Source of the DNA: Marinobacter alexandrii
GTDB lineage: Bacteria > Pseudomonadota > Gammaproteobacteria > Pseudomonadales > Oleiphilaceae
Direction of reading: 5' to 3'
Assembly (NCBI RefSeq): GCF_005871205.1
Contig: NZ_SWKM01000014.1
Coordinates: 412,001 to 476,000, forward strand
Length of the DNA stretch: 64,000 nucleotides
A model generated the notes under the pieces. The model did no database searches. It was not told where the DNA came from and worked only from the letters and a program-made list of their open reading frames with translations. Of this stretch, positions 47,162 to 63,597 are shown piece after piece (position 1 is the first letter of the stretch; each line of letters starts with the position of its first letter). Position numbers and translations under genes: made by a program.

Positions 47162-47902
47162 ATGTCAAAATCCATCACCAGCGCGCGGTCATTTCCGCGA
47201 GATCGATCAAGCAAACGTCCGTTTGGATTCGAGGATCGGCCCGTAGTGTCGTTCCCGATCACCGAAGTGACCATCGATTGGGATCGGCTCATCGACAAGC
47301 GGCCGTTGTTGCTCGAGACTCTTAACACCATGCCCAAGTACCTGCTCAAACCCGAGGTACTGGACCTTCTAGAGACAGAGACCCACCCCATGCATCGGCT
47401 GATTCTGGATCTGATGTGGTGCACCGGCGCCCGGGTCTCCGAGGTGCTAGCGATCACGCCGGCCAGCTTCCATGATCGCGGGCGCGATTTTGGGGTGATC
47501 CTCAAAACGCTCAAACAAGGCGCCGGGCGGCCGAGCAAACGCAGCCTGCAGCGCTCGCCTAAGCGTTTCGTTCCGATTCTCGATCGGGACTTTCAAACCC
47601 GGATCCAGAGCTACCTGTGGATGGGGAAGTTTCGGAAGGACGAGCGGATCTTTCCGATCACTCGCCAAGCGGTCAGCGCCAACATCGACCGGCTGATTGA
47701 GCAGGTTGGGGGAGAGCCGCCGTTCAAGATCGGGTGCCACACCTTCAGGCATAGTTTTGCAGTCCATCTGCTTCTCCACGGCCGGCCGTTGAAGTTTGTG
47801 AGCCAGCTTCTGGGGCACAGAAGTGTCGAATCTACAGAGGTTTACACGAATGTGTTAACGTTCGATGGGGCGCATTTTTTGGAAGGCGTAGCGTTTCACT
47901 GA
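47162..47902 (+). CDS. Tyrosine recombinase (intact)
   Basis: A 246-residue tyrosine recombinase with a full catalytic set: Arg91 (CTGARVSEVL), His193-x-x-Arg196 (GCHTFRHSF), His219 (LLGHRSVEST) and Tyr228 (EVYTNV). It lacks a long N-terminal core-binding domain, so it is short for the family and may rely on the region before residue 50. ATG follows GGAGGGGAA. It is divergent from tnsA, with 237 bp between the starts. A truncated relative (about 80% DNA identity by eye over some 280 bp) lies in the chimeric remnant at 29757-30041, so this recombinase family has moved or recombined within the window more than once. Confidence 0.88.
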   Translation: MSKSITSARSFPRDRSSKRPFGFEDRPVVSFPITEVTIDWDRLIDKRPLLLETLNTMPKYLLKPEVLDLLETETHPMHRLILDLMWCTGARVSEVLAITPASFHDRGRDFGVILKTLKQGAGRPSKRSLQRSPKRFVPILDRDFQTRIQSYLWMGKFRKDERIFPITRQAVSANIDRLIEQVGGEPPFKIGCHTFRHSFAVHLLLHGRPLKFVSQLLGHRSVESTEVYTNVLTFDGAHFLEGVAFH

Positions 47903-48182
47903 ACTGGACAAATGCATATTCTGATCTTGTGGGAGCTAGGGCTATGCCTTCTCCAACCAGTTCTTTTTCCTGTCGCAGCACTAGCTCTGACATATTGGCC
48001 GTGCTCGGCTTTTAAATCATTACAGCATCTGCCCCAAGCAATACTCGCCAACTGTCCAAATCTCGCTAACGTCAATCTTAGACCAAAAAGATATGAACAT
48101 TGAAACGTTTAGCTTATGCAACAGACATCATCCGATATGACAGCTAAGATAGCGAAAACAATGCCTAATGGCGGAGTCACGG

Positions 48183-49667
48183 ATGACGAGCGGATTGCAT
48201 AAAGTCCTTATTAGCTGGATTGGGGGCAACGATTTAAAGGCGGTAGCCGACAAACAATCGGGCCCGATCTTATCGACGCTCAAAAATGCCGAAATTGATT
48301 CGGTTGAGTTGCTGTATTCCTATCCTCAAGCGGAGGTGGAGTCATACCTCTCATGGTTGCAGCAACGGGTCGATATCCCTATCAAGGCCACAGAAGCCAA
48401 GCTCAGCTCGCCGGTCAATTTTGGTGAGATTTATCTGGCTGTAGAGCCCGTCCTAAAAAAACTTTCGACTGCTGAAACCGAGTTATCGATTCTGTTAAGC
48501 CCTGGCACCCCTGCTATGCAAGCGGTGTGGATACTGCTCGGCAAAACCAGATTCCCGGCTGTCTTCTACCAGTCTTCGCGCGAGAGTGGAGTAGAGCGGG
48601 TAGAGATACCCTTCGAGCTTGCAGCAGAATTCGTTCCTGCCGTTTCCGAAATTTCAGATGCCAAATTGAATGCCCTGACCGATTCCCGGGTCCCCATCAA
48701 TGCGGCATTCGATAATATTGTCACCCAAAACCCGAGTATGCACGTGCTCAAACAGCAGGCGCAGATCCTTGCTGAACGTAACGTGCCAGTCCTGATTTAT
48801 GGCGAAACAGGCACGGGGAAGGAGTTGTTTGCCCGTGCCATCCACAATGCTAGCCCGCGTCGCGAGAAACCGTTTATTGCATTGAATTGCGGGGCCATTC
48901 CTGAAGAGCTGATTGATTCGACTCTCTTTGGCCACAAGAAGGGAGCCTTTACGGGAGCAGTCGCAGATCGTTCTGGTGTGTTCCAGCAGGCCGATGGCGG
49001 CACTTTATTCCTCGATGAGTTTGGTGAGTTGTCGCCACAATCGCAGGTTCGGCTGCTTCGTGTGTTACAGGAAGGCCGATTAGTCCCGGTAGGTAGTGAC
49101 AAAGAGCTGCCTGTGGATGTGCGCATCATCACCGCCACACATCGTAATCTCATGGAAGCGGTTGCAGATGGTCATTTCCGGGAGGATCTTTTCTACCGTG
49201 TGGCCGTCGGAGTTCTGCACCTGCCGCCTCTTCGTGCCCGCGAAGGTGACCTTTCGTTACTTGCAGATATGATGCTCAAAGCTCAGGGTGACCAGGATCC
49301 GGCGTTCTCCGGTAAGAAACTTTCCGCTGACGCAAAAAAAGTTATTCTTCAACACCCTTGGCGAGGTAATGTTCGGGAGCTTCGCTCCACTCTCGTAAGG
49401 GCAGCGCTCTGGAGTTCAGGCGAAAACATAACCGGTGCGGAATTACAGCAGGCACTATTCACTATGCCAGAGCGTGAGCCGGATCTACTCAATCATGATG
49501 TGAGTCAAGGTGTTGATCTAAATGGAATAATGGGCGAATTGGCTGCGCATTACATTCAGAATGCCATGGCCCACACTGCACAGAATAAAACGAAGGCTGC
49601 AAAACTTCTTGGCCTGAAAAGCCAGCAGACCTTGAGCAACTGGATCGAAAAATACGACATCGAATAA
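48183..49667 (+). CDS. RtcR/CARF-like sigma-54-dependent activator
   Basis: A 494-residue bacterial enhancer-binding protein. Residues about 1-165 form a Rossmann-type sensor like the CARF domain of RtcR, including ILLSPGTPAMQAVWILLG (compare the glycine-threonine ligand loop of CARF proteins). The AAA+ domain has Walker A GETGTGKE (from 207), the sigma-54-contacting loop GAFTGA (254-259) and TLFLDEFGE as Walker B. A Fis-type HTH ends the protein (KTKAAKLLGLKSQQTLSNWI). The ATG at 48183 is chosen because GCGGAG lies 6 nt upstream, inside the alternative 48168 start. RtcR responds to RNA-damage ligands and turns on RNA repair; here the neighbours are restriction and TerY-P genes. GG-N10-GC promoters at 49671 and 62160 are the likely targets. 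Confidence 0.85.
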   Translation: MTSGLHKVLISWIGGNDLKAVADKQSGPILSTLKNAEIDSVELLYSYPQAEVESYLSWLQQRVDIPIKATEAKLSSPVNFGEIYLAVEPVLKKLSTAETELSILLSPGTPAMQAVWILLGKTRFPAVFYQSSRESGVERVEIPFELAAEFVPAVSEISDAKLNALTDSRVPINAAFDNIVTQNPSMHVLKQQAQILAERNVPVLIYGETGTGKELFARAIHNASPRREKPFIALNCGAIPEELIDSTLFGHKKGAFTGAVADRSGVFQQADGGTLFLDEFGELSPQSQVRLLRVLQEGRLVPVGSDKELPVDVRIITATHRNLMEAVADGHFREDLFYRVAVGVLHLPPLRAREGDLSLLADMMLKAQGDQDPAFSGKKLSADAKKVILQHPWRGNVRELRSTLVRAALWSSGENITGAELQQALFTMPEREPDLLNHDVSQGVDLNGIMGELAAHYIQNAMAHTAQNKTKAAKLLGLKSQQTLSNWIEKYDIE

Positions 49668-49670
49668 AAA

Positions 49671-49686
49671 TGGCATGGTCCTCGCA
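49671..49686 (+). promoter_or_regulatory. Candidate sigma-54 promoter before hsdR
   Basis: TGGCATGGTCCTCGCA fits the -24/-12 consensus with exact GG-N10-GC spacing, 4 bp after the activator gene. The predicted start of transcription, about 49697, coincides with the annotated hsdR ATG (49698), so use of this promoter would need a later start codon (for example 49716). Moderate confidence. Confidence 0.45.
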
Positions 49687-49697
49687 GAAGGACTGAT

Positions 49698-52600
49698 ATG
49701 AGCAGAGTATCCTTTATGAAATCGGTCAATTTTGAGTTTCTTCGGCCCAAGTACGATGTCCTGGCAAACCTCGGGGGGTTGGCGGAGGCCGTTCTCCATG
49801 TCGACCCCGGAAGCGCTTTGACGCGGCTGCGGAGCTTTGGCGAGGAGATGACGAAGACCATTTACAAAGAAGAGTCTCTGCCGAGGTTTCCGCAGGCCAC
49901 GTTTTATGAATTGACCAGAAACCCGGTCTTCGCCGACTGTGTCGATAAATCGCTTATCCATCAGCTCAATTTTCTTCGGGTTCAAGGCAATGATTCCGCA
50001 CACGGTGCGGAAGGTGACCTGCAGAGTGCAAAGATGTCACTCTCAACTGCTCATCAGTTGGCAGGCTACATGGCGCTTACCTATGGCGGGGAGCCAAAGG
50101 AGAACCTGCCATCCCTCAAGGAGATTCCTGACCCAGCCAACGCCATTGCTCAGCTGAAAAAGTCGGTTTCCAGTTATAAGAAAGATATAGAAAAACAGCA
50201 GGAAGAGCTCGAGCGGGTCATGATCGAGCTGGACCGCGAGCGCGCTAAGCAAGCCGAATCGTTCGAGCAGCCGGCCGAACCGGAACAGCAAGCGCGCAAA
50301 GAACGCAGCCAGAAGGCGGCCGACTCTCTTCAATGGAACGAAGCCAAAACCCGAGCGCAGTTGATCGACGCAATGTTGGTGAAAGCAGGCTGGGATATCG
50401 GAAACCCGGCCCAGGTTGGCCAGGAAGTGGAGGTGAAATTCCCCGACAATCCCTCGGGCAAGGGCTATGTCGACTATGTACTTTGGGGTGAGAATGGCCA
50501 GCCGCTTGCGCTGGTCGAGGCCAAGAAATCCGGCACGGTAAACCTTCAGGCAGGGCGGGAGCAGGCCCGTTTATACGCCAACTCTTTTGAGTATATGGGG
50601 TTCCAACGGCCCGTCATTTTCTACAGCAATGGCTATGAAACCTTTATCTGGGATGACCACCAGTACAATACCTATCGTCCGGTCTATGGATTCTATAGCC
50701 AGGAAAGCCTGGAATATCTGATCTACCAGCGCCACTACCGCGCCGCAGAACTTGAGCGTTTCAACCCTGAGCTCAAGATCGCTGACCGCCCCTATCAGAT
50801 TGAGGCCATCAAAACCGTCGCCGCCCATTTCCAGAATCAAAGGCGTAAAGCGCTGATCATTCAGGCGACGGGCACAGGTAAAACCCGAGTCGCGATCGCT
50901 CTGGCAGAGCTGCTTACACGGACAGGATGGGCCAAGAGGGTGCTATTTCTGTGTGACCGAAAAGAGCTACGGATTCAGGCAGACGATGCGTTCAAGCAGA
51001 ACCTTCCCAGTGAGCCCCGCTGTGTCATCGGTGAAACCAGCAGGATTGATGACTCCGCCCGCATATACATCGCAACCTATCCCGGCATGATGAACCGGTT
51101 TGCGCAGTTGGATGTGGGGTTCTTCGATCTGATCATTGCCGACGAAAGCCACCGCAGTATTTACAACAAATATCGGGATTTGTTCGATTACTACGATGCG
51201 TTGCAGGTTGGCCTAACCGCAACACCGGTCAAGTTCATCAGCCGTAACACCTTTGATATCTTCGATTGTGAAACTACCGATCCCACGTTCGAATTCGGGC
51301 TGGATGCGGCGATCAATAATGAGCCGCCTTACCTGGTGCCGTTCACGGTAAAAGACCTAACCACCGAATTCCTTCGCGAGGGTATTCATTACGGCGATCT
51401 GGCCCCGGAGCAACAGCAACAGCTTGAGGAAGATCTGGGTGAAGAAGAAGCCCGGACTACCACCATCGCTGGCTCAGATATAGGCCGAAAGATCTTCAGT
51501 GAGGCTACTGATCGCGTCATCCTGGAAAACCTGATTGATAATGGCATCAAGGATGAAACCGGCTCACTGGTTGGGAAAACGATCATTTTTGCCCAGCGCC
51601 AGGACCACGCAGAGCACCTCGAGAAACTGTTCTGCAAGATGTACCCGCAGTACGGGACTAAAGTGTGCAAGGTCGTCCACAACGCCATTCCTCATGTGGA
51701 TAGCCTGATCAAGGAATTTAAAAAACCAGATAACAATTTCCGCATCGCCATCTCGGTAGACATGCTGGATACCGGTATCGACGTGCCGGAAATCGTCAAC
51801 CTCGTCTTCGCCAAGCGCGTTAAATCCTGGGTGAAGTTCTGGCAGATGATCGGCCGGGGTACCCGTTTGAGGCCAAATCTTTTCGGCCCAGGGCAGAACA
51901 AGACTGAATTTTTGATCTTTGACCACTACGGGAACTTTGATTTTTTTGAAGAGGAATACAAAGAGCCCGAAGACACTGGCAGCAAGCCACTTCTTCAAAC
52001 CACGTTTGAGGAGCGGCTTGCCCTAACACAAGCGGCCCTGAAGCAGAACCATGCGGCAGGCTACGACGTGGGTGTGCGCCTACTCAAGGAAGACATCAAT
52101 GACCTGCCTGATGAAAGCATCGCTGTGCGGCGCAACCTACGGGTGGTTCACCAGCTTCAGCAAACCGATCTGCTGGATAAACTGGATGCGCGAACGCAGC
52201 ACCTGCTGGCAGAAACCATCGCTCCTCTTATGTCCAGTCGCGTACTGCGGGACAAGCATGCAACGGCGCTGGACAAACTCATGGCAGGCATCGAGCGTTG
52301 TCTGGTAGAAAAGGCGAGCTGCTTTGAAGATGGCAAGACTGCACTCATTGCGGAAGTCGAAAGGCTAGCGGTAAACATCCAGGCCGTTCGCCAGAAAGAC
52401 AAAGTGATCGAAGAAGTTAAGAGTGCTTCGTTCTGGGCAGATCCAAGCATTGAAAAGTTGGAGCATGCCCGGCTGGAGCTGCGCGGCATTATGAAGTACC
52501 GAAAGCCTAAGGTTTATCCGGGTGCTGGAACGCAAACAACCAGAACGAAAGATGGCGAGGTTTGGATCCGAGAGCGCGAGGTTTACATAGCCGGTGCAAA

Positions 52601-53102
52601 CGAAGCCATGATCTACCGTCGGCGTCTCAAAGGCATTCTGGACAAGATGCTTTCGGAAAACCCGATCCTCCAGAAAATCCACAATGGCGAGGCAATCGGT
52701 GAGTCGGATCTCCAAACTCTGACATCAACGATTCTTACGACGCATCCGGGGGTCAGCCTGGATGTATTGAACGAGTTCTATGGTCGGACAGCAGACCAGT
52801 TAGACCTCACGGTGCGAGAGATCATTGGCCTAGACCCTCAGGCGGTAGAAGAGCATTTCAAACAGTTTCTTCACGCCCATCCGACGTTGACAGCCCAGCA
52901 AGTACGGTTCATGAACCTGCTGAAAAACTACATCGCACAGCACGGCTCCATCGTCGTCGAAACCCTCTACGATGCGCCATTTACCTCGGTATCCCATGAG
53001 GGAATCGACGGCGTGTTCAAACCGGACGATGTGGGTGAGCTGATTGATGTGCTTAGACCGTTTCTAAAACCAGATTCTCAGCCCACGGAACTACAGGGAT
53101 AA
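49698..53102 (+). CDS. hsdR: Type I restriction enzyme R subunit
   Basis: A 1,134-residue HsdR. An N-terminal DUF4145-type helical domain (about 10-130) is followed by a short coiled coil (about 150-205), the HsdR_N nuclease (YVDYVLWGENGQPLALVEAKK, PD-ExK site), the SF2 helicase motor (Walker A QATGTGKTR near 391; DESH near 482; VGLTATP; MIGRGTR) and a C-terminal HsdM/S-binding region. The DUF4145 plus EcoEI-like layout indicates a type IB-like relative. It translocates DNA and cuts unmodified phage DNA. A candidate sigma-54 promoter lies immediately upstream. The start is either the ATG at 49698 (GAAGGA upstream) or 49716. It is separated from its hsdM/hsdS partners by rmuC. Confidence 0.93.
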   Translation: MSRVSFMKSVNFEFLRPKYDVLANLGGLAEAVLHVDPGSALTRLRSFGEEMTKTIYKEESLPRFPQATFYELTRNPVFADCVDKSLIHQLNFLRVQGNDSAHGAEGDLQSAKMSLSTAHQLAGYMALTYGGEPKENLPSLKEIPDPANAIAQLKKSVSSYKKDIEKQQEELERVMIELDRERAKQAESFEQPAEPEQQARKERSQKAADSLQWNEAKTRAQLIDAMLVKAGWDIGNPAQVGQEVEVKFPDNPSGKGYVDYVLWGENGQPLALVEAKKSGTVNLQAGREQARLYANSFEYMGFQRPVIFYSNGYETFIWDDHQYNTYRPVYGFYSQESLEYLIYQRHYRAAELERFNPELKIADRPYQIEAIKTVAAHFQNQRRKALIIQATGTGKTRVAIALAELLTRTGWAKRVLFLCDRKELRIQADDAFKQNLPSEPRCVIGETSRIDDSARIYIATYPGMMNRFAQLDVGFFDLIIADESHRSIYNKYRDLFDYYDALQVGLTATPVKFISRNTFDIFDCETTDPTFEFGLDAAINNEPPYLVPFTVKDLTTEFLREGIHYGDLAPEQQQQLEEDLGEEEARTTTIAGSDIGRKIFSEATDRVILENLIDNGIKDETGSLVGKTIIFAQRQDHAEHLEKLFCKMYPQYGTKVCKVVHNAIPHVDSLIKEFKKPDNNFRIAISVDMLDTGIDVPEIVNLVFAKRVKSWVKFWQMIGRGTRLRPNLFGPGQNKTEFLIFDHYGNFDFFEEEYKEPEDTGSKPLLQTTFEERLALTQAALKQNHAAGYDVGVRLLKEDINDLPDESIAVRRNLRVVHQLQQTDLLDKLDARTQHLLAETIAPLMSSRVLRDKHATALDKLMAGIERCLVEKASCFEDGKTALIAEVERLAVNIQAVRQKDKVIEEVKSASFWADPSIEKLEHARLELRGIMKYRKPKVYPGAGTQTTRTKDGEVWIREREVYIAGANEAMIYRRRLKGILDKMLSENPILQKIHNGEAIGESDLQTLTSTILTTHPGVSLDVLNEFYGRTADQLDLTVREIIGLDPQAVEEHFKQFLHAHPTLTAQQVRFMNLLKNYIAQHGSIVVETLYDAPFTSVSHEGIDGVFKPDDVGELIDVLRPFLKPDSQPTELQG

Positions 53103-53104
53103 CT

Positions 53105-54958
53105 ATGCAGACCATTCAATGGACGAACGAACTGATCGTAATTGCCAGCCTGATAGGCATCGCGTTCGCTGGGCTGGGCTTTTTGATGGCCACCGTGGTG
53201 CAAAGTCGAAAGGTTGCCAGGCTCACTGCCCAGCTGGAACAGCTGCAAGGAAATCTGGAGCAAGCAGGCGCCTTGAATCAAAGCTTGCAGGATTTGATGA
53301 AAGATCTGGAATCATCACTGCATGAGAAGGATCTGGCAGAAAGCCGACTGCAAGCGCAGCTGAGCGGTGCCCAATCTAACGAGCAACGGCTAACTGACGA
53401 GCTGCGAAGCCAGAAAGAAGAGGTTGCCTCTGTGAACGCTAAACTGGAGGAGTCTCGCCAACGTCATCATGCGACCGAGAGGCAGCTGGAAACATTCCAG
53501 GCAGACAATCGCGCCCTCCAGGAGCGTGTAGATGACCTGCGTGAACGGCTGGGGCGTGCAGAGCTGGACCTCCAAGAGGAGCGAGAGCAGATGAGCCAGC
53601 TCAAGGAGAGGCTGGCAGAAGAAGGAAAGAAAGCGAAGGCCCTGGAATCGTCAGACACAGACGCGAGAGAACAGCTCAAAGAAGCCAAGGCAAACCTGTC
53701 GGCCCAGCAGGAAAGATACTCGGAGCTCCAGGAACGCTACCAAAGCCTCAGCAGCGAACACACAGAGCTGAAAACCACGCTGGAACGAAAGGAAGAACAC
53801 TTCCAGGACCAGATGCAGCAGCTAGGCGAGACCAAGCAGGCTCTTACCAAAGAATTCGAGAATATAGCGAATAAGATCTTTGAGGAGAAAGGCAAAACCT
53901 TCACTCAAACTAGCCAGAGCAGCATCGACAGCATGCTCAAGCCCTTTCGAGAGCAAATTGAGGGCTTCCAGAAGCGCATCAACGAAGTTCACGATGCGTC
54001 CCTAAAGGGTAACAGCAACCTGAACGCCGAAATCCGGAAAGTACTGGATATTGGTCTGCAGATGAGCAAGGAAGCGACGAGCCTCACTTCCGCCCTGAAG
54101 GGGGATTCCCAGCAGCGCGGTGCCTGGGGCGAAGCCCAATTACGCCGAACCCTGGAAATGAGCGGTTTGATTGAGGATGCTCATTTCGCAGTACAGAGCA
54201 GCTTCAAGGATGATGACGGCAAGCAAAAACAGACCGATTACCTGATTAAACTGCCGGATGAAAAGCACATCATCATCGACAGTAAAGTCTCCCTGGTGGC
54301 TTACGACCGTGCGGTATCTGCAGACACCGAAGAAGAGTACAACCTGGCAATGGCGGAACACGTAAAAGCAGTGCGTCGCCACATTGATGATCTGGCCGGT
54401 AAGGATTACACCAATCTTGTCGGTATGCGCAGCCCCAGTTTCGTGCTCATGTTCATGCCGATTGAACCGGCGTATATAGAAGCCCTGAAAAGCAACAAGG
54501 ACCTCTTCGAGTACGGCTACAAAAAGAACATCGTGCTGGTGTCCCACACTACGCTGATTCCAATTCTGCGAACCGTGTCCAACCTCTGGATGATTGAGCG
54601 CAGCAACGCCGAAGCCCGTGAAATCAGTGAAAAGGCCGGCGATATCTACAACCAGGTGTGTACCGTGGCCGAACGTCTGAATAAGCTCGGCGGCACGCTC
54701 AACACCGTTAGCAATCACTACAACGATACCGTCACCGCCCTCGCTGGCAAGCAGGGCCTTTATGGCAAGGTTGAACGTTTCACCAAGCTTTCTGCAAAGG
54801 TCACAAAGTCCATGCCTGCCATCGAGCCGGCACACAGGGATTTCGAGACAGAACGGCTCTCAATGATTGTTGAAGCCATTGAAGAGCCCGAAGAGGAAGA
54901 CTCTCGAGCTCTGGACAATCCAGAAGAAGCGACCGATGACGTCGCAACCAATCAATAG
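53105..54958 (+). CDS. rmuC: RmuC-family protein embedded in the hsd operon
   Basis: A 617-residue RmuC: an N-terminal membrane helix (residues about 8-30, LIVIASLIGIAFAGLGFLMA), a long coiled coil (about 35-270, Glu/Gln/Leu-rich heptads) and the RmuC nuclease-like domain (about 290-570, with QRGAWGEAQLRRTLEMSGLI, then DYLIKLPDEKHIIIDSKVSL, an IIDSK motif resembling a PD-DxK-type site). RmuC limits inverted-repeat recombination in E. coli and recurs inside type I R-M loci. It starts 2 bp after the hsdR stop and 30 bp before hsdM, so it is part of the operon; its job here may be to process DNA at the membrane during restriction. RmuC identity is firm, the defence role is inferred. Confidence 0.9.
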   Translation: MQTIQWTNELIVIASLIGIAFAGLGFLMATVVQSRKVARLTAQLEQLQGNLEQAGALNQSLQDLMKDLESSLHEKDLAESRLQAQLSGAQSNEQRLTDELRSQKEEVASVNAKLEESRQRHHATERQLETFQADNRALQERVDDLRERLGRAELDLQEEREQMSQLKERLAEEGKKAKALESSDTDAREQLKEAKANLSAQQERYSELQERYQSLSSEHTELKTTLERKEEHFQDQMQQLGETKQALTKEFENIANKIFEEKGKTFTQTSQSSIDSMLKPFREQIEGFQKRINEVHDASLKGNSNLNAEIRKVLDIGLQMSKEATSLTSALKGDSQQRGAWGEAQLRRTLEMSGLIEDAHFAVQSSFKDDDGKQKQTDYLIKLPDEKHIIIDSKVSLVAYDRAVSADTEEEYNLAMAEHVKAVRRHIDDLAGKDYTNLVGMRSPSFVLMFMPIEPAYIEALKSNKDLFEYGYKKNIVLVSHTTLIPILRTVSNLWMIERSNAEAREISEKAGDIYNQVCTVAERLNKLGGTLNTVSNHYNDTVTALAGKQGLYGKVERFTKLSAKVTKSMPAIEPAHRDFETERLSMIVEAIEEPEEEDSRALDNPEEATDDVATNQ

Positions 54959-54988: not shown

Positions 54989-56590
54989 ATGCTTACAGGC
55001 CAACTTCGTAACGACATCGACAAGCTCTGGGAAAAGTTCTGGACCGGGGGCATCACCAACCCCCTGACCGTGATAGAGCAGATCAGCTACCTCATGTTCG
55101 CCCGCATGCTGGATATGCAGGAAGAGGTGGCTGAACGCAAGGCGGCCCGCACGGGCAAGCCCTTCGACCGCCTGTTCCCGGACACATCAGATGGCCAGCT
55201 CCTGCGCTGGAAAAATTTCCACCACATGAGTGGCAAGGAGCTGCACAAGCACCTCAAGAATAATGTCTATCCGTACTTCGCCAGTCTGGGTCAGCACTCA
55301 GAAGACGAGGGGTTAGGCACAGAAGGCACCGCCGTCCAGGCGTTGGGGCACATCGGTGAGTACATGCAGGATGCGGATCTGGAGATCAAGAACGAGTCCG
55401 TGCTTGTTTCCGCCGTGGAAATGGTCAACAACCTGCCGCTCACCCAAAGCGACGTAAAAGGCGATATCTATGAATACCTGCTCAGTAAACTAACCACCGC
55501 AGGTATTAACGGCCAGTTCCGCACGCCGCGACACATCATCGACGCGATGATCGAGCTGATCGACCCACAGCCCACAGACGTTATCTGCGATCCGTCTTGC
55601 GGCACGGCAGGTTTCCTGGCGCGGACCATGGAATACCTGAACAAGAAGTATTCCAGCGATGCAGGCACCTTTACCGACGAAGACGGCAATCTCCATTACA
55701 CCGGCGATCTGCTGGAGCCCTACCGGGAGCACATCAACAAACAAATGTACTGGGGCTTCGACTTCGACACCACCATGCTCAGGGTAAGCAGCATGAACAT
55801 GATGCTGCATGGGGTGAACGGCGCCAATGTTCTCTATCAGGACAGCCTCAACAAATCCATCAAAGAGCATTATCCAGAACAGGAAGAAGAGTTCTTCGAT
55901 ATCGTCCTGGCCAATCCGCCGTTCAAGGGCAGCCTGGATGAAACCAACACCAATCCGGACGTTTTGGGGGTCGTGAAAACCAAGAAAACCGAGCTGCTTT
56001 TCGTGGCGCATATCCTGCGCTCTCTCAAGCTTGGTGGCCGTGCGGCGGTGATCGTACCCGATGGTGTTTTATTTGGCTCTTCCAATGCCCACCAGCAGCT
56101 GCGTAAGGAGCTGATTGAAAATAACCAGCTGGAAGGCATCGTCAGCTTGCCCAGTGGTGTTTTCAAACCCTACGCGGGTGTAAGCACCGCGATCCTGATT
56201 TTTACCAGGGGCGGTTCTACCGAGCGCGTTTGGTTTTATGACTTGCTAGCCGATGGGCTCAGTCTTGATGACAAGCGCACCGAGCTAAAAGGTGAGGGCA
56301 CCAACGACCTGCCGGATGCAATCGCCCAGTGGAAGCAATATCGCGGCTTGGTGGAATCCAACGCCAGCGCCGAAGAGATCGAGCAAGGCTTTGGCGATAA
56401 AGCCCAAAAGTCGTTTGTAGTGGATGCCAAGAACATCGCTGACAATAAGTTTGATCTTTCTATAAACCGCTACAAAGAGGTGGTGTACGAGGAGGAGGAA
56501 TACGAGGATCCGAAGGTAATTCTGCAACGGCTAAAAGGACTGGAGAGAGAAATTCTGGCCGATCTGGATGAGTTGGAGGGGATGTTGTGA
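54989..56590 (+). CDS. hsdM: Type I N6-adenine methyltransferase M subunit
   Basis: A 533-residue HsdM. HsdM_N helical domain (about 6-130, opening [20 protein letters not shown]), SAM-binding motif [11 protein letters not shown] (201-210) and catalytic motif IV NPPF (309-312), as in N6-adenine methylases. It methylates the host recognition site together with HsdS, protecting it and forming the core to which HsdR binds. The hsdS GTG start overlaps its stop (GTGA), so the subunits are made together. Length and motifs are normal. Confidence 0.95.
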
Positions 56591-57768
56591 ATTGGCCTGC
56601 TGTTTCCTTGGGTGAAATATCGGCGCATATAAGAAATGGCGCGTCGATTAAGCAAAGTAAAGATGCCTCTGGTTTGCCTGTGACTCGAATTGAGACAATT
56701 GCACAGCGTGAGGTTAATCTGGAAAAGTGCGGATTTGCTAATATTGGCGATGATGAGTATCGAAACTACAGGCTTTCTTCTGGTGACATTTTAATCAGTC
56801 ACATAAATTCTGAGAAGCATCTCGGAAAGTGTGCAATCTATGAAAGTGCTCGGAGTGATGTGGTTCATGGAATGAACCTGCTTTGTCTTCGACCCGTCAA
56901 AGATAAAGTTTTTCCAAAATATCTTTTTTACTGTATTTCCAGCCCAAGTTTTACACGTTTGCTTCCGGCTATATCCAAGAAATCAGTCAACCAAGCTAGC
57001 TTTACTGTCAGCGCATTTAAAGGTTTGAAGGTTCCTCTTCCACCGTTAGAAGAACAAAAACGCATCGCCACCATCCTCGACAAAGCCGACGCCATCCGCC
57101 GCAAACGCCAGCAAGCCATCCAGCTCGCCGATGAATTCCTCCGAGCTGTGTTTCTGGATATGTTTGGTGATCCGGTGACTAATCCCAAGGGGTGGGAGGT
57201 GAAGCCTTTAAAACAACTTGCAAGGGTGACTACCGGGAACACGCCGTTGCGAAAAGAAGAAAAATTTTATGGTGATCACATTGAATGGATTAAGTCAGAC
57301 AATATCAATACGCCTTCTCACTTCTTGACTGCGGCTTCTGAAAGCCTTTCTGCAGAAGGCAAAAAGGTAGCGAGAGTCGTTGGCAAAGGCTCAATATTAG
57401 TTACGTGTATTGCGGGAAGCTTTGACTGTATTGGTAATGTGGCCTATGCAGATCGTGAAGTGGCTTTCAATCAACAAATTAATGCGCTTACACCACTTGA
57501 TAGTGTGACAAGTTGGTTTTTATACGCGCTAATCCTTTTTTCGAAAAAGCATATCCAGTCGGCATCAACAAACTCAATGAAAGGAATGGTAAGCAAGGGA
57601 AAAATGGAAGAAATTCCTATGATCTGCCCGCCACGATCGATCCAGGAAACGTTTCAAGAAGCCTTTCTCAAGTTTCTATCGGTGACTGAGGATTTGGGTT
57701 GTTCTTTTGCTGGGACGAGTGATGTTTTCGATTCAATAAGCCAGCGGGCATTTTCGGGCGAAATCTAA
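56587..57768 (+). CDS. hsdS: Type I specificity subunit S
   Basis: A 393-residue HsdS with two target-recognition domains (about 1-150 and 205-360) separated by a conserved helix (LPPLEEQKRIATILDKADAI, then RRKRQQAIQLADEFLRAVF) that acts as the ruler between half-sites. A second PPRSIQETFQEAFLKFL helix closes the second unit. It determines the bipartite DNA sequence methylated and cut. The start is a GTG overlapping the hsdM stop. The second TRD is visibly AT-richer than its neighbours, consistent with TRD exchange. Recognition sequence cannot be predicted by eye. Confidence 0.93.
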   Translation: MNWPAVSLGEISAHIRNGASIKQSKDASGLPVTRIETIAQREVNLEKCGFANIGDDEYRNYRLSSGDILISHINSEKHLGKCAIYESARSDVVHGMNLLCLRPVKDKVFPKYLFYCISSPSFTRLLPAISKKSVNQASFTVSAFKGLKVPLPPLEEQKRIATILDKADAIRRKRQQAIQLADEFLRAVFLDMFGDPVTNPKGWEVKPLKQLARVTTGNTPLRKEEKFYGDHIEWIKSDNINTPSHFLTAASESLSAEGKKVARVVGKGSILVTCIAGSFDCIGNVAYADREVAFNQQINALTPLDSVTSWFLYALILFSKKHIQSASTNSMKGMVSKGKMEEIPMICPPRSIQETFQEAFLKFLSVTEDLGCSFAGTSDVFDSISQRAFSGEI

Positions 57769-57777
57769 GGAGGGAAC

Positions 57778-60024
57778 ATGATCGGCGAGATCAAGATCAA
57801 TCCACCGGTAGCAACGTATTCGAATCCGGCGACGCTCAACGATCTGCGCCGTATCAACTTTATCTTTGGTGCTAACGGCACCGGAAAAACCACGATCAGC
57901 CGTGTGATCGCACAAACAGAGGAGAACAGTCACTGTCAGCTTATATGGCAAGGCGGTGCCCCTTTGAATGCGATGGTGTATAACCGCGATTTCGTTGATA
58001 GAAACTTTAATCAGGATAGCCCGTTACAAGGCGTTTTTACCCTTGGCGAAAACCAAGTAGAGGCTGAGCGTGAAATTGCACGCTTGCAGCCAGAAATCGA
58101 GAAAGTTGACGATCAAATAGCCAGCCTAAACAGGCAGCTTGACGGCGACGATGACCAGCCCGGTAAACGAAAAGAGCTCGTCGACCTAGAGCCTGCATTG
58201 CGAGAAAAGTGCTTTGCGCAGAAGAAACTGCACGATAACTACTTTCAAGAAGCGTTTACAGGTGTTCGCAACAATGCAGAGAGATTCAAAGAAAAGGTTT
58301 TGAGTGAAAGGGACTCGAACAATGCAGAGTCGCTTACATTAGATGAGTTAAAGGAGAAGGGCAGAACGGTTTTTTCGAAGGGGCTTGAAAGAACATCGCC
58401 TCTTGCGGATTTATCTGCCGACAATCTCATAGAGGTTGAGTCTCATGAATTACTGAAAAAGGCGATCATAGGTAATCAGGACGTCGATATTGCTGCGTTA
58501 ATTGATCGTCTTGGCAATAGCGATTGGGTAAAGCAAGGTATTAAGTTCCATGAGCAAGATCCGGAAACCTGCCCTTTTTGCCAACAGTCAACGGATGATC
58601 ATTTTGCTGACAGTCTGAAATCCTTTTTCAGCGATGCTTATGATAGTGACATTCAGGCATTAAGGGCGCTTCAAAGCAATTACCAAAGAGCGAGCGAACG
58701 GTTGCTGGCTACCGTCCAGCGCAATATTGAACTAGGCAACCCTTTCTTAAAGCTGGAATTGTTCAATGCTGAAGCCCAGGCGCTGTCTGAACGGCTAAAG
58801 GGAAATAGGGCGCTCTTGGAGGACAAGCTTGCCGAGCCGAGCCGAAAAATAGAGCTCGACCCTGTCGAACCGTTGCTAATGAATTTGCAAAAGACAGTAT
58901 CTGAAGCAAATGACGCGACCACCAGCCATAACCAAACTGTGGCGAATATAGCGACTGAGAGGCAGACGCTAACCACCCAAGTCTGGCGCTATGTGCTCAA
59001 CGAGTTAACTGAAGATTTGTCTGAGTACCAGGAAAATAAGAATCAGTTGACGCAAACAATTCGAGGGATGGAGGGTGGCCTGAGAGCAAAAAAGCAGAGG
59101 CGCGGAGAGCTGAAGGAGCAGATTGCGGAGCTGGAAAAGCAAACCACGTCAATTCAGCCTACCATCGCCGCGATCAATGATTTGTTGCAGCGATTTGGTT
59201 TTCATTCTTTTAAGCTTGGCGAGTCGAATGACGGTCGTCACTATCGAATTGTCCGCGAAAATGGAGAAGACGCCAGTCGCTCATTGAGTGAGGGCGAAAA
59301 GACCTTTATCACCTTCCTGTATTTCTACTACCTAATCAAAGGCGCTCAAACTCCATCAGGAATAACCTCAAACAGGGTTGTGGTATTCGATGACCCAATA
59401 TCCTCGTTAGACAGCGATATCCTCTACATCGTCAGCAGCCTTATCAAGGGAGTCATGGAGGAAGTCAGAAGCGAAGCAGGTCAGATCAAGCAGGTGTTCT
59501 TGCTAACGCACAACGTCTACTTCCACAAAGAGATCACCTTCAATCAAAAAAGGCCGTCAGACCGAGCACTAAATGAGGAAAGCTTTTGGCTTGTGAAGAA
59601 GCTGCAGCAAGGCTCTGTTGTTGAGCGCTGCAATACCAACCCAATTCGCTCTGCTTATGAGCTTCTGTGGGAAGACGTAAAGTCCGCCAACCTATCGAGC
59701 TTAAGTCTTCAGAATACATTGCGCCGGATCCTTGAAAATTACTTCACTATGTGGGGTGGGATGGGGAAGGACGAAATCTGTGCGCTTTTTGATGGGCGAG
59801 ACAAGTTGATTTGTCAGTCTCTGTTTTCTTGGGTCAATGATGGCTCTCACTCCATCCATGATGATCTTTACATCAACCAGGGGGAACAGACCAATGAAAC
59901 CTATTTGCGTGTATTCCGGAACATATTTGAAAAGGCTGGCCAACTAGGCCATTACGAGATGATGGCAGGCGAACAGCCGGCGTTGACGGAGGAAGAGCAG
60001 GCGATAGCCCAGCACGGTATATAG
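57778..60024 (+). CDS. RloC-like ABC-type ATPase, candidate anticodon nuclease
   Basis: A 748-residue AAA_13/ABC-type ATPase. It has Walker A GANGTGKTT (31-39), the MVYNRDFVDRNF signature of the PrrC/RloC group, an interrupted coiled coil carrying a zinc-hook-like CPFC (265-268), a second coiled coil (to about 450), the ABC signature LSEGEKTFI and Walker B VVVFDDPISSLD. In the C-terminal region RRILE (R649 to E653) and later NDGSH (H691) match the Arg-x3-Glu...His arrangement of the tRNA-cutting site in PrrC/RloC. RloC proteins accompany type I R-M systems and cut tRNA anticodons after DNA damage. Strong SD AAGGAGGGA. The ATPase class is certain; nuclease activity is inferred. Confidence 0.75.
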   Translation: MIGEIKINPPVATYSNPATLNDLRRINFIFGANGTGKTTISRVIAQTEENSHCQLIWQGGAPLNAMVYNRDFVDRNFNQDSPLQGVFTLGENQVEAEREIARLQPEIEKVDDQIASLNRQLDGDDDQPGKRKELVDLEPALREKCFAQKKLHDNYFQEAFTGVRNNAERFKEKVLSERDSNNAESLTLDELKEKGRTVFSKGLERTSPLADLSADNLIEVESHELLKKAIIGNQDVDIAALIDRLGNSDWVKQGIKFHEQDPETCPFCQQSTDDHFADSLKSFFSDAYDSDIQALRALQSNYQRASERLLATVQRNIELGNPFLKLELFNAEAQALSERLKGNRALLEDKLAEPSRKIELDPVEPLLMNLQKTVSEANDATTSHNQTVANIATERQTLTTQVWRYVLNELTEDLSEYQENKNQLTQTIRGMEGGLRAKKQRRGELKEQIAELEKQTTSIQPTIAAINDLLQRFGFHSFKLGESNDGRHYRIVRENGEDASRSLSEGEKTFITFLYFYYLIKGAQTPSGITSNRVVVFDDPISSLDSDILYIVSSLIKGVMEEVRSEAGQIKQVFLLTHNVYFHKEITFNQKRPSDRALNEESFWLVKKLQQGSVVERCNTNPIRSAYELLWEDVKSANLSSLSLQNTLRRILENYFTMWGGMGKDEICALFDGRDKLICQSLFSWVNDGSHSIHDDLYINQGEQTNETYLRVFRNIFEKAGQLGHYEMMAGEQPALTEEEQAIAQHGI

Positions 60025-60082
60025 AAGATCGAAGAGATATTTCAATAATTGCTTTGAGCAAAAGGGAGTGGCCAACCAAGTC

Positions 60083-60934
60083 ATGCGATTACCTATCCGG
60101 CACAACGGAGATTACATAGTCGAATTCGATCAGTTGACTGTTCATGGTCGGGAGGCCGCTGGCGGATATGGTCTTACCTTCGTCATTCGGGGCAATCGCC
60201 AGCCTTGTCAAAGGAAAATGGTCCTATTCGATATAAGCCTTTCGATCTCCCTGGCCGACCCGATGAGACCGCTACTGGTTTCCATTCCTTCTTCTGAGCG
60301 CTTGATCAAGTGCCATGATTTCCCGGGTAGCGAGCAGGTTGCGTTTGAGATGGTACTCAGTCGAGAGCAGATCAATGCCTTGGAGGCGTACCGACAGGAG
60401 AAAGATCTTAAACTGAATCTGGGGTTGAGGGCATTGGTGGCATCGGGCGATGAACTGCTTCCGAGCTTTGACTGCACGGATATTATCGTACCCAGGGAGC
60501 AATGGCTGGACGCATTAAAAAATGCCGGCTACAGGAACACATTGCTATTCGAGGTTCCGCTTCCGGCAACGTCTGACGGTTTGGCATCTTTGATTTCAAA
60601 AGCTCAGGAGTTCATTGAAACTGGGCACTACAAAGATGCCGTTATGCAATGTCGGCACATTGTCGAACAGATCGAATCCATGCGCGAGGATAAGAACTTA
60701 TCAGCCTCTGCCAACAAGAGGGCACATTCCAGCGAACGGAAGGGTATGACCTCTATCGAGCGCCTGTTCAGCCTTCGAGAACAGCTCAAGAACATCTGCC
60801 ATTTGGGCGCTCACGGCACTGAAGAATTCACCCGTTCTCAGGCGAAGGCGATTCTGGGTATGACCATGGCGTTGCTGTCGGAACCCACTGTGGGTTTTGC
60901 GGCCGGACAAGATCTGATTGAGGAGCAAGATTGA
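60083..60934 (+). CDS. Unknown island protein with C-terminal helical domain
   Basis: A 283-residue soluble protein. The first 170 residues are beta-rich (YIVEFDQLTVHG, MVLFDISLSISLADP) without a recognised fold. The last 110 are helical, with MQCRHIVEQIESMRED and LREQLKNICHLGAHGTEEFT, then RSQAKAILGMTMALL, resembling DUF4145 or Abi-C-type domains that occur in defence proteins. The ATG at 60083 is preferred over a GTG at 60068 that overlaps the AAGGGAG ribosome site. Its stop overlaps the ATG of the next gene (TGATG), so the two form a coupled pair. Function unknown; it may modulate or be modulated by the RloC-like or nuclease neighbours. Confidence 0.7.
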   Translation: MRLPIRHNGDYIVEFDQLTVHGREAAGGYGLTFVIRGNRQPCQRKMVLFDISLSISLADPMRPLLVSIPSSERLIKCHDFPGSEQVAFEMVLSREQINALEAYRQEKDLKLNLGLRALVASGDELLPSFDCTDIIVPREQWLDALKNAGYRNTLLFEVPLPATSDGLASLISKAQEFIETGHYKDAVMQCRHIVEQIESMREDKNLSASANKRAHSSERKGMTSIERLFSLREQLKNICHLGAHGTEEFTRSQAKAILGMTMALLSEPTVGFAAGQDLIEEQD

Positions 60935-62004
60935 TGGCAGTCCAGCACGGAATCTGGAAGATCGGCGATAAGCCCCAAACGCTCACGACGGTGACGCTTG
61001 AAAGCGAGTCACTCCTCGAAGAGCAGATCACCAAAGACATCTCCATCCTCAGCGATCACTGGTTATTGATTGGTCGCCAAGTTTATACCGACTTCGGCAA
61101 GTACATTGATCTTCTGGCTATTGATGCCACTGGCTCCATCATCATTATCGAGCTCAAGAAAGACAAAACACCTCGCAATGTGGTTGCTCAAACCATTGAT
61201 TACGCATCTTGGGTCGAGAACCTGTCTTCGGAGAAGTTTGTTCAGATTTATGCAGACTTCGCAGCTAATAATGGCCTGCCAGACCAGACCTTCGATCAGG
61301 CATTCAAAGCGAAGTTTGGTGTGGCGCCAGTAGAAGATGAAATCAACAGCTCCCACCAGATGGTGATCGTTGCCGCTGAACTCGATGCGAGTACCGAGCG
61401 GATCATCAACTACCTTAACGATAAGGCCAGTGTCGCGGTAAACGCCGTTTTCTTTTCTGTGTTCAGGGACGGAGAGAACCTGTATCTCAGCCGGTCATGG
61501 ATGATTGACCCTGTGGAGACGGAAGAGCGCGCAGTCAACACAGGGCAGCGGGGTGAATGGAACGGAGAGTTTTACGTCAGCTTCGGAACCTACCCTGATG
61601 GACGGAATTGGCAGGATGCGGCGGAATATGGGTTTATTTCTGCCGGTGGCGGACGCTGGTACAGCAGAACCGTGTTTATGCTGAAACCTGGCGATCGGGT
61701 TTGGGTAAACATTCCGGGCACGGGGTATGTGGGTGTTGGAAAAGTTTCCGGCCACCCGATGGTGGCGGACGAATTCATCACCGACGATATGACGATGCAG
61801 GGCGGATATAACCGGGCATTAGAGTACGGTGAAGATGATGCGGAATATTTTGTGCCGGTGGACTGGCTTCACAAGGTTTCAGAATCCAACGCCGTCAACG
61901 AGGTGGGTTTGTTCGGCAACCAGAACTCTGTGGCCCGGCCTCGTGCGTCTAAGTGGGATCACACGGTGACTCGGTTGAAGGAGCTTTGGCACCTTTCGAA
62001 ATAG
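60934..62004 (+). CDS. NucS/DUF91-like PD-(D/E)xK nuclease protein
   Basis: A 356-residue protein. The N-terminal half has a restriction-like nuclease core: DFGKYIDLLAIDATGSIIII followed by ELKKDKTPRNVVAQTIDYAS, giving Asp...Glu-x-Lys and the conserved downstream Gln/Tyr region seen in NucS/DUF91 nucleases. The C-terminal half (about 200-340; WNGEFYVSFGTYPDGRNWQD, DRVWVNIPGTGYVGVGKVSG) is a beta-rich domain of PUA/EVE-like appearance that could read modified bases. The ATG at 60934 overlaps the preceding stop. It may act on modified or damaged DNA beside the type I system. Nuclease fold likely, substrate unknown. Confidence 0.75.
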   Translation: MAVQHGIWKIGDKPQTLTTVTLESESLLEEQITKDISILSDHWLLIGRQVYTDFGKYIDLLAIDATGSIIIIELKKDKTPRNVVAQTIDYASWVENLSSEKFVQIYADFAANNGLPDQTFDQAFKAKFGVAPVEDEINSSHQMVIVAAELDASTERIINYLNDKASVAVNAVFFSVFRDGENLYLSRSWMIDPVETEERAVNTGQRGEWNGEFYVSFGTYPDGRNWQDAAEYGFISAGGGRWYSRTVFMLKPGDRVWVNIPGTGYVGVGKVSGHPMVADEFITDDMTMQGGYNRALEYGEDDAEYFVPVDWLHKVSESNAVNEVGLFGNQNSVARPRASKWDHTVTRLKELWHLSK

Positions 62005-62159
62005 GGAGCGAGGCGCCCGTTTATCAAAACGGGTGCCAGGCAGAGTCCAAGGATGCGACGGTAAGAAAAATTACTCTCCTGTAAATAGTTCTACCTTTCA
62101 CTCCGCTTCTCTTAAAGCCTTCCTGTTTTAGGTATCTGAATAATATACATTTAAGATCC

Positions 62160-62175
62160 TGGCACGCTTCTAGCT
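62160..62175 (+). promoter_or_regulatory. Sigma-54 promoter before the vWA-PP2C-kinase triad
   Basis: TGGCACGCTTCTAGCT matches the -24/-12 consensus (TGGCACG-N4-TTGCT) with one mismatch and has exact GG-N10-GC spacing. Transcription would start near 62186, leaving a leader of about 48 nt before the ATG at 62234 with its AAGGAGA site. The activator encoded at 48183 is the obvious partner. Upstream 62005-62159 should hold its enhancer sites. Confidence 0.75.
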
Positions 62176-62233: not shown

Positions 62234-62905
62234 ATGTCGGAACTCAAAAAATTCCAGGTGCAAACTGCACGTCCGCTGCCAGTTGTCGTGTTGGCAGATA
62301 CCAGTGGAAGCATGTCGGTTGATGGCAAGATTGACGCATTGAATCGAGGCCTTAAAGACATGGTCGCCAGCTTTGCTTCCGAGAGTCGTCTTCGGGCGGA
62401 GCTCCAAGTTTCGGTGATTGCTTTTGGGGGCGATAAGGCCGAGATGATTTTGCCACTTACCCCCGCCCATCAGATTGAGGGTATCACGCAGCTTGAGGCT
62501 TCTGGCATGACGCCTCTCGGGGGAGCTCTGACCATCGCCAACGAGTTGATTGAAGACAAGGAACGCATTCCTTCCAGGGCATACAAGCCGGTGGTGGTTC
62601 TCATCTCCGATGGCTATCCGAATGATGATTGGCAGGAACCGTTTCAACGTTTTGTTAATGGTGAACGTGCCGCCAAGGCAACACGGTTTGCCATGGCTAT
62701 TGGCTCGGATGCGGACGAAGCCATGCTGGGCGACTTTGCGAATGACCCCGAGGCGCCGCTTTTCCGTGCGGAGAACGCGCGGGATATTCACCGATTCTTC
62801 CGTGCGGTCACCATGAGTGTTAATGCCCGCAGTCAATCAGCTAAACCAAACCAGTCAGCTCCGCTGCAGATTCCCGCAGATGACGACGAGGATTGGGAAT
62901 TCTGA
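62234..62905 (+). CDS. TerY-like von Willebrand factor A domain protein
   Basis: A 223-residue vWA protein. The metal-ion-dependent adhesion site DTSGS (22-26) is complete, with the Thr in SGMTPLGGALT and the Asp in LISDGYPNDDW. The fold covers residues about 15-195; the tail is acidic (ADDDEDWEF). This is the TerY type found next to a PP2C phosphatase and a Ser/Thr kinase in the TerY-P triad of tellurite/stress-linked systems, where the vWA is thought to be a scaffold or kinase substrate. AAGGAGA precedes the ATG. Its stop overlaps the phosphatase start (TGATG). Confidence 0.88.
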   Translation: MSELKKFQVQTARPLPVVVLADTSGSMSVDGKIDALNRGLKDMVASFASESRLRAELQVSVIAFGGDKAEMILPLTPAHQIEGITQLEASGMTPLGGALTIANELIEDKERIPSRAYKPVVVLISDGYPNDDWQEPFQRFVNGERAAKATRFAMAIGSDADEAMLGDFANDPEAPLFRAENARDIHRFFRAVTMSVNARSQSAKPNQSAPLQIPADDDEDWEF

Positions 62906-63597
62906 TGAGGCTGTTAGCCGCCGGAGCATCGGTAAGGGGCCCGGCCCACGAACAGGATGGCTCCCCGAATCAGGATGCTCTTTCTGTGCGCGGGTGTGGT
63001 GGAGGTTGCTTTGTTGCTGTCGCTGACGGACTGGGTAGTCGCTCCCGCAGTCATATCGGTTCTAGGAGAGCGGTCGAGCTGGCTCGCGAGGTTGTTCTCG
63101 ATCTGAAAACCTCTACCAGTGCCGACGTACCTGCTCAGTTGAGTCGAGCATGGCGGTCTGCATTCGCGAATCGCTATGGCGATTATGAGACTACATGCCT
63201 CTGGGCGTGGGTTGATGCTGATGGGCAGGGGCACGTCTGGCAGGCGGGAGATGGTTTGATGCTTATCCGCAGCCAAGGCAAGTTCCGGATTCTATTGGAT
63301 CAGAAGGACGGGTTTGGCAATCAGACAACGACGCTTGCGCAGGCCGAGACCGAGGGTGCCGTCAGTGCTGATATCACACTGACCTCACCAGGTGACGGTG
63401 TACTTCTGATGACAGACGGAATCTCGGATGACCTTATCCCGGAGCAGCTGGAGCCATTTTTCAACGCGATTTATCGACGCCAGAAGCGAAGCAGCAAACG
63501 GCGAATGAAGCGCTGGTTGGAGACAGAGTTAAAACAGTGGTCCACGCCACGCCACGGCGATGACAAGACCATCGCAAGCATTTTCAGAATGGATTAA
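62905..63597 (+). CDS. PP2C-family protein phosphatase of the TerY-P triad
   Basis: A 230-residue Mg/Mn-dependent PP2C-type Ser/Thr phosphatase. The metal-binding Asp residues are in PNQDA (24), VADGLG (41), and the later MTDGISDDL, plus a basic C-terminal end (RQKRSSKRRMKRWLE). It reverses phosphorylation by the kinase encoded next. The ATG at 62905 overlaps the vWA stop; a TTG at 62893 in the same frame is less likely. Four bases separate it from the kinase start. A short PP2C with no membrane or sensor domain, as in other TerY-P loci. Confidence 0.9.
   Translation: MRLLAAGASVRGPAHEQDGSPNQDALSVRGCGGGCFVAVADGLGSRSRSHIGSRRAVELAREVVLDLKTSTSADVPAQLSRAWRSAFANRYGDYETTCLWAWVDADGQGHVWQAGDGLMLIRSQGKFRILLDQKDGFGNQTTTLAQAETEGAVSADITLTSPGDGVLLMTDGISDDLIPEQLEPFFNAIYRRQKRSSKRRMKRWLETELKQWSTPRHGDDKTIASIFRMD

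Follow-up and report, generated by a model that had tools for sequence, protein, structure and literature searches.

In Escherichia coli, RtcR and its target rtcBA form a system in which a bacterial enhancer-binding protein (bEBP) of CARF-AAA-HTH architecture works with an upstream activating sequence (UAS), an IHF site and a -24/-12 promoter; without its CARF domain, the protein is constitutive in vitro (PMC9650030). RtcR-like (non-Rtc) CARF proteins encoded beside restriction-modification (R-M) genes have been proposed to be sigma-54 activators of the downstream restriction genes (PMC4012209), and RtcR homologs to promote CoCoNuT transcription through a UAS, with internal, RtcR-independent promoters supposed in the CoCoNuT superoperons (PMC11090510). 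RtcR-type control was thus predicted in print for restriction in 2014 and for CoCoNuTs in 2024; in the sections of these papers considered here, promoters or binding sites of the proteins beside R-M genes are not described (PMC4012209), promoter or UAS sequences of the CoCoNuT loci are not named (PMC11090510), and no mention is made of the element and the embedded enhancer presented below. No paper treating the promoters of these loci was found, as judged by titles and abstract openings. The locus considered here lies in a stretch of 64,000 nucleotides of Marinobacter alexandrii (contig NZ_SWKM01000014.1, positions 412,001 to 476,000), hereafter the window; in the 4.34-Mb genome, it belongs to contig C14. 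It fits the RtcR - R-M - TerY-P - Type II CoCoNuT superoperons as presented in PMC11090510. The product of its rtcR-like gene (48168-49667) most likely fires two sigma-54 promoters, P1 in front of the R-M genes and P2 in front of the TerY-P triad and the Type II CoCoNuT genes, together a kinase/RNase module against phages, through two pairs of AT-rich dyads, one of which is embedded in the rtcR-like gene itself. Positions are those of the window, and the window features located by them are all on the plus strand.

The -24/-12 element of P2, TGGCACGCTTCTAGCT, is found at 62160-62175, with GG at 62161-62162 and GC at 62173-62174, 10 nt apart. Sigma-54 promoters have the surroundings TGGCAYR and TTGCW around GG-N10-GC, and the single mismatch of P2 to TGGCACGNNNNTTGCW (consensus form TGGCACG-N4-TTGCW) is A62172. 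The predicted transcription start is 62186. An earlier interpretation, the sequence-only reading, had announced a GG-N10-GC site one base off consensus, placed before the first triad gene and 12.5 kb from the activator, and direct reading agrees: the site is separated from the ATG of the vWA gene (62234) by 58 nt and is 12.49 kb past the stop of the rtcR-like gene. It is the sole sigma-54 site with at most one mismatch within the window, and exact TGGCACGNNNNTWGCW occurs once in the genome, namely at P2. However, the consensus match by itself, which the sequence-only reading had taken as strong evidence, is weak evidence and is rejected here as sufficient, because sites with at most one mismatch to TGGCACGNNNNTWGCW are fewer genome-wide (46) than those of a reversed control pattern (97). 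Within the window, 92 matches were counted at up to three mismatches vs. 106 expected from shuffles. The 46 near-matches amount to ~0.7 per 64 kb; therefore, a near-consensus match somewhere in the window is unremarkable, and the argument for P2 has to be based on its position and conservation.

P2 is accompanied by a phased upstream element of the kind that bEBPs use. A dyad pair, GGTAAGAAAAATTACT and TGTAAATAGTTCTACC, with starts 20 bp apart, is located at 62060-62095, 64 bp upstream of the -24/-12 element; the two 16-bp AT-rich dyads are centered ~108 bp before the predicted start. The same element, an AT-rich dyad of about RTAAGAAAAATTAC, is shared by non-coding P2-type promoters of relatives, where it is frequently present twice at a 20-bp step. 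A dyad matrix of 16 bases was built from 14 such P2-type dyads, with the pairs embedded in rtcR genes kept out of the training. The top pairs in the 64 kb are those at 62060 (score 29.2, in training) and at 49311 (21.0, not in training), and the third scores 10.2. The alternative that the site at 62160 is a chance match, with the triad read from upstream or from sigma-70 promoters, is extremely unlikely: it draws on the lack of genome-wide enrichment and on a sigma-70 scan that also misses any rtcR promoter and so leaves room for one at the triad, but the position of the site and the upstream pair are conserved in relatives and, by the genome density, the 229-nt gap that precedes the triad should contain only ~0.001 such sites on its plus strand. 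In view of this and of the comparison described next, it is very probable that TGGCACGCTTCTAGCT truly belongs to a sigma-54 promoter of the triad.

Relatives were collected by a CARF-domain scan of a genome-contig collection, and the best 80 of 399 were used; five viral-contig relatives and most plasmid matches stayed outside the analysis. An initial set consisted of six relatives matching the full activator profile, three of which recur among the 80 (G303 = L120, G249 = L133, G091 = L134). The closest activator among these best 80 of 399 is that of Marinobacter litoralis (L056; RtcR 85%). A search with the vWA protein, covering 50 of the 80 loci, gave ten matches, nine of them new (L147 duplicates L111); further duplicates were counted once (L153 = L101, L158 = L150, L161 = L120). 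In each of the nine new loci, the activator gene shares contig and strand with the vWA gene and lies 10-29 kb upstream of it, and a sigma-54 site stands 50-74 nt before the vWA gene in seven of them (at three mismatches in L148). In M. litoralis, a P2-type site is found at -74, exactly as in the window. No site is present there in L143, but in its locus L080 both promoter and pair are found one gene upstream, and in L149 the site precedes a small open reading frame (ORF) that stands before the vWA gene.

A comparison of the region before the triad across relatives bears out P2; an alignment of this intergenic region had been named as a check in the sequence-only reading. Where an RtcR-like gene is nearby, 22 of 25 TerY-P loci have site and element before the triad, as compared to 1 of 11 without such a gene (Fisher p 1e-5; absence of the activator refers to the whole genome for five of the 11 and only to the stretch read for six plasmids). 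A locus was counted as positive when the 700 nt preceding the triad included a GG-N10-GC site with at most three mismatches and an element; accepted as element were a pair (also a weak one), a single clear dyad or, where the promoter lies directly behind rtcR, an embedded pair. A strict version (at most two mismatches within 160 nt) gave 15/25 vs. 1/11 (p 0.005), judged by hand like the first count, and a scripted count on an older grouping with four faulty rows (G612 and three plasmid loci) gave 14/25 vs. 1/8 (p 0.04). The presence of the activator was confirmed by a CARF match in all 25 loci. After CARF searches, G735 was reassigned to the activator-positive loci, whereas G1010, initially included through a BLAST match to the AAA domain, was moved to the negatives, as its genome gave no CARF match. 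In the negatives Phytobacter, Caballeronia and G056, a weak CARF match was traced to a different protein that is no RtcR-type activator. In G763, a P2-type promoter is found with a divergent rtcR gene, and in G735 rtcR lies 11 kb downstream; therefore, the promoter goes with the triad and is not merely a feature of the spot behind rtcR.

The activator matches the PADLOC profile RtcR_PspF2 over positions 2-481 of 481 (7.5e-215), i.e., with CARF, AAA sigma-54 and HTH domains over the full profile. In Pfam, it matches Sigma54_activat (9.7e-69) and, just under the cut-off, HTH_8 (1.7e-4), while it fails the NCBIfam equivalog cut-off for canonical RtcR (328.7 vs. 650). By these profiles, it is an RtcR-like CARF-AAA-HTH protein of a subfamily other than canonical RtcR. 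The genome contains rpoN and 18 matches to PF00158, 16 of them strong. Only one of the 18 lies inside the window; the statement of the sequence-only reading that this is the window's only sigma-54 activator thus stands, but carries little weight with 18 in the genome. That number also provides the argument for a real P2 served by another bEBP of the genome. This option is very unlikely, since the dyad pair of P2 matches the pair inside rtcR and since P2-type promoters accompany the activator across many genera, in the proportions given above.

A second sigma-54 site, overlooked in the sequence-only reading, is located between the stop of the rtcR-like gene and hsdR. This site, P1 (TGGCATGGTCCTCGCA, 49671-49686), has the GG-N10-GC arrangement with two mismatches, and its predicted start, 49697, is 1 nt before the hsdR ATG. 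The six first relatives all have a site with at most two mismatches within ~120 nt after the rtcR stop. Among 74 relatives, such a site occurs within 60 nt of the stop in 42 at at most one, 60 at at most two and 63 at at most three mismatches, as compared to 0, 0 and 4 of 678 control stops of ORFs of at least 250 aa in the same loci; this count leaves out L071, L083, L107, L115 and L129, with rtcR frames shorter than 480 aa, and L127, which lacks the downstream sequence. Among 51 genes less than 80% identical to each other, the present one included, 38 have P1 at at most two mismatches. In loci with R-M genes behind rtcR, P1 is in many cases predicted to start 1-2 nt upstream of the hsdR ATG. 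In L066, rtcR is followed by a stump of P1-hsdR and then by P2 and the triad; here, the R-M genes seem to have been excised between the two promoters.

The enhancer that would serve P1 lies in the activator gene. A dyad pair, GGTAAGAAACTTTCCG and CGCAAAAAAAGTTATT, with starts 20 bp apart, is embedded in the rtcR-like coding sequence at 49311-49346. Such a pair is the best of its locus in 59 of 75 cases and the second in 10 of 75; among 35 loci obtained in searches with other bEBPs, the best pair, at 21.0, is that of the window's own gene (L008), and the next reaches 16.1. Around rtcR, GTAAGNNNNNTTAC at one mismatch was uninformative, and the pair with its fixed 20-bp step was informative instead. 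Codon usage was taken into account by 300 shuffles per gene that keep both protein and codon usage, again without the five genes with short frames. None of the 300 shuffles of the present gene reached the score of its embedded pair. Of the 64 genes with P1, 63, among them the present one, have a pair that exceeds codon usage at p<=0.05, and 57 at p<=0.01; among genes without P1, p<=0.05 is found in 8 of 12. In the aligned rtcR genes, synonymous conservation at the pair surpasses the average over all windows by ~4 s.d., and AT-rich codons are retained there even in several genes of 60-67% GC, though not in L120 and L130. Among the genes without the embedded pair are L072 and L120, with an intergenic pair before the promoter of the triad, and L103 and L130, in which P1 is lacking.

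The consensus for IHF binding is YAANNNNTTGATW, and a synonymously conserved stretch between the embedded pair and P1 contains an IHF-like site, CAAGGTGTTGATC, with one mismatch to it (49506-49518). The windows of synonymous conservation at this stretch, codons 444-453, reach z values of 4.7-5.0, and 52 of the 64 genes that have P1 contain the site with at most one mismatch. At P2 of the window, no convincing IHF site was found; L144, L148 and G189 have, by eye, perfect matches to the consensus.

The embedded dyads could alternatively be an autoregulatory operator of rtcR or reflect another coding constraint. Dyad pairs just upstream of rtcR in L116, L123, L126, L127 and L131, mostly methylotrophs, suggest autoregulation of rtcR in those loci and make it possible in general, and another stretch, codons 3-10, is also synonymously conserved in GC-rich genes. 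The embedded pair, however, is found 1.1 kb inside the gene and ~370 bp before the start of P1, it has the same 20-bp format as the pair of P2, and its loss (p>0.05) tracks the absence of P1 (4 of 12 genes without P1 vs. 1 of 64 with P1). An operator or coding constraint in place of a P1 enhancer is, thus, unlikely.

The sequence-only reading had further held that the triad is induced separately from constitutive R-M genes. The first half of this proposal survives in that P2 is a dedicated sigma-54 site with its own element, whereas the second half is not supported in view of P1. Because P1 (60/74 vs. 0/678) and the embedded pair are conserved, it is more likely that both are induced, and R-M genes and triad are probably co-induced by one activator from two promoters. 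Constitutive R-M genes, with only triad and CoCoNuT induced via P2 and with P1 non-functional or negligible beside read-through from rtcR, would still be in line with the 30-nt gap between rtcR and hsdR, which makes basal read-through likely, and with the two mismatches of P1 and its predicted start at the hsdR ATG. Yet, most relatives retain P1 and the embedded pair, to an extent that neither chance nor codon usage accounts for, and we regard this model as quite improbable. The unit is also larger than the triad proposed originally: the site precedes the triad, but helicase, HEPN, McrB-like and McrC-like genes follow.

Several observations weigh against control of both promoters by the RtcR-like protein. 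The P2 counts are partly circular, as the matrix was trained on P2-type dyads. Three of the 25 activator-positive loci fail (in L143, the promoter is one gene up; G905 has the pair but GG-N10-GA; in G189, the promoter is several genes up), and some of the 22 are weak: L148 and Polaromonas have three mismatches, the pair of G735 scores 10.5, and L066 and L150 have one clear dyad. The Pseudomonas putida plasmid pKF715A (L182:17847-21301) carries a P2-type promoter, a triad and a shortened helicase gene, and an RtcR-like gene is absent within the stretch read. The lack of a sigma-70-like site at P2 says little, because the scan is also blank before rtcR. Many P1 sites have C at -14, and the start predicted for P1 suggests that the hsdR message is leaderless or is translated from a second in-frame ATG 18 nt on (49686-49718 region), which is present in many relatives. 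L120 and L130, both rich in GC, have lost the embedded pair, the IHF-like site is weak by codon shuffling (p<=0.05 in 16 of 64 genes, and 0.22 here), and in the subset of genes with at least 55% GC the top synonymous conservation is found at codons 3-10 (48174-48197), outside the favored model. The activator-negative loci are few, and for six of them, the plasmids, the activator search was confined to the stretch read.

Support for control of both promoters by the RtcR-like protein also comes from spacing. In 1.95 Mb of loci, scanned for a dyad pair followed 50-170 nt later by a sigma-54 site, 25 matches were found as compared to 0.67 in block shuffles, and their pair-to-site distances are helically phased (Rayleigh p ~4e-6 for all 25), although both figures are optimistic, given that the promoters include closely related ones and that the training set contained many of the dyads. 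Distances of 51-53, 61-65 or 73-74 bp account for 23 of the 25, the other two being 101 and 117 bp; such classes are expected if activator and polymerase must share one helix face. Five three-mismatch matches are in unlikely places (L076, L126, L127, L131 on the minus strand, and G612 at 8842), and the spacing test was run both on all 25 and on the remaining 20. One match, in Marinomonas ushuaiensis (L118:11590-15812), combines the same dyad pair and sigma-54 site with a differing defense module: it precedes a 154-aa ORF and the DruH gene of a Druantia type III system. A similar small ORF lies behind a pair and a three-mismatch site in L112.

The two -24/-12 elements, the two dyad pairs with their common 20-bp format, their conservation and the link with the activator emerge from the sequence and its comparison with relatives. 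From these we infer binding, transcription, the contribution of IHF, the ligand and the course of events during infection, as follows. The CARF domain would restrain the AAA+ motor until a ligand binds (cf. E. coli RtcR, PMC9650030). The activator would bind the pair at 62060-62095 and, once a ligand signaling infection or RNA damage is sensed by its CARF domain, drive open-complex formation at P2, whose -24/-12 element would serve the TerY-P triad and the Type II CoCoNuT genes. It would also bind at 49311-49346 in its own gene and, perhaps with the help of IHF, fire P1 and raise the R-M proteins, whose genes would thus combine a likely basal read-through from rtcR with a boost from P1. Triad and CoCoNuT genes may depend more on P2, as they stand behind a strong hairpin without a U tract, located between the R-M block and the control region of the triad (62012-62037; -26 kcal/mol and z -4.1 upon folding of 62005-62060); no terminator-like site was found there.

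Like E. coli RtcR with rtcBA, the locus combines a CARF-AAA-HTH bEBP with a UAS, an IHF-like site and a -24/-12 promoter; unlike that system, it has an activator of another subfamily, R-M and CoCoNuT genes as putative targets, two promoters and one enhancer within the ORF of the activator. As in the arrangement outlined in PMC4012209, a gene for a putative sigma-54 activator is located upstream of restriction genes, and in contrast to the supposition in PMC11090510, the internal promoter in front of TerY-P seems to depend on RtcR. With concrete promoters and candidate binding elements at hand, RtcR-type induction of defense becomes directly testable, and the signature of pair plus site can be used to find further RtcR-controlled systems. 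If the proposal is true, a synonymous-site enhancer in the activator's own gene would explain how one gene brings inducibility to differing defense modules. A tentative and rather doubtful extension would be that the rtcR-like gene acts as an induction cassette that is portable, with its own enhancer, perhaps an IHF site and a terminal sigma-54 promoter, that renders any defense module behind it inducible (Type I R-M, TerY-P/CoCoNuT, Druantia), while stacked modules would regain control via a copied pair and promoter. In this scenario, RloC-like tRNA cutting upon blocked restriction would make RNA ends that are sensed by the CARF domain, so that failure of restriction would signal the second, RNA-cutting line of defense.

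The R-M block starts with hsdR (49698-53102; Pfam, PADLOC), followed by genes, recognized in profile searches, for an RmuC-domain protein (53105-54958), which takes the place of ShdA in PMC11090510 as far as presented there, and by hsdM (54989-56590) and hsdS (56587-57768). The next gene (57778-60024) encodes an AAA_13 protein (7e-190) with a PADLOC PrrC match on residues 465-727 (7e-13) and no match among PDB sequences at E<=0.01. RloC/PrrC anticodon nucleases combine an ABC-type NTPase with a zinc hook and R-E-H nuclease residues; by eye, the protein has a hook-like CPFC motif and, close to its C-terminus, R-x3-E...H, which may correspond to these. It is possibly an RloC/PrrC-like anticodon nuclease between the restriction and CoCoNuT modules, and as a guess from these motifs it could supply RNA ends for sensing. 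A 288-aa ORF (60068-60934) gave no match at E<=0.001 in Pfam, PADLOC and NCBIfam, and a PDC-S11/NucS_C nuclease-like protein, identified by profile searches, is encoded at 60931-62004.

The triad consists, in order, of the TerY-like vWA gene (62234-62905; profile searches, PADLOC TerY only 1.2e-4), a PP2C phosphatase gene whose ATG overlaps the vWA stop (62905-63597), and a Ser/Thr kinase gene with a C-terminal zinc ribbon (CQSCGG...CFFC) that begins at 63602 and runs past the window end at 64000 to C14:477002. In profile searches, Type II CoCoNuT genes were found beyond the window at C14:477009-486220. They encode a UPF1-like SF1 helicase (AAA_11/AAA_12 matches), a CnuE-type protein with one RxxxxH HEPN motif (RNQGGH), a McrB-like ATPase (AAA_5, 1.9e-5, with a long coiled coil by eye) and a McrC-like partner (DUF2357, 21.5 bits, just under the cut-off of 23.3). 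By its gene content, the triad is the head of a Type II CoCoNuT operon that extends past the window. An integrase-family gene on the opposite strand follows. No tRNA genes are present in the 64-kb window. The activator gene itself (CARF - AAA+ sigma-54 interaction - Fis-type HTH) is preceded by an integrase-family ORF identified in profile searches (47162-47902), and the integrase-family genes at both ends of the block (47162-47902 and L013:14324-15127) suggest an integrative island.
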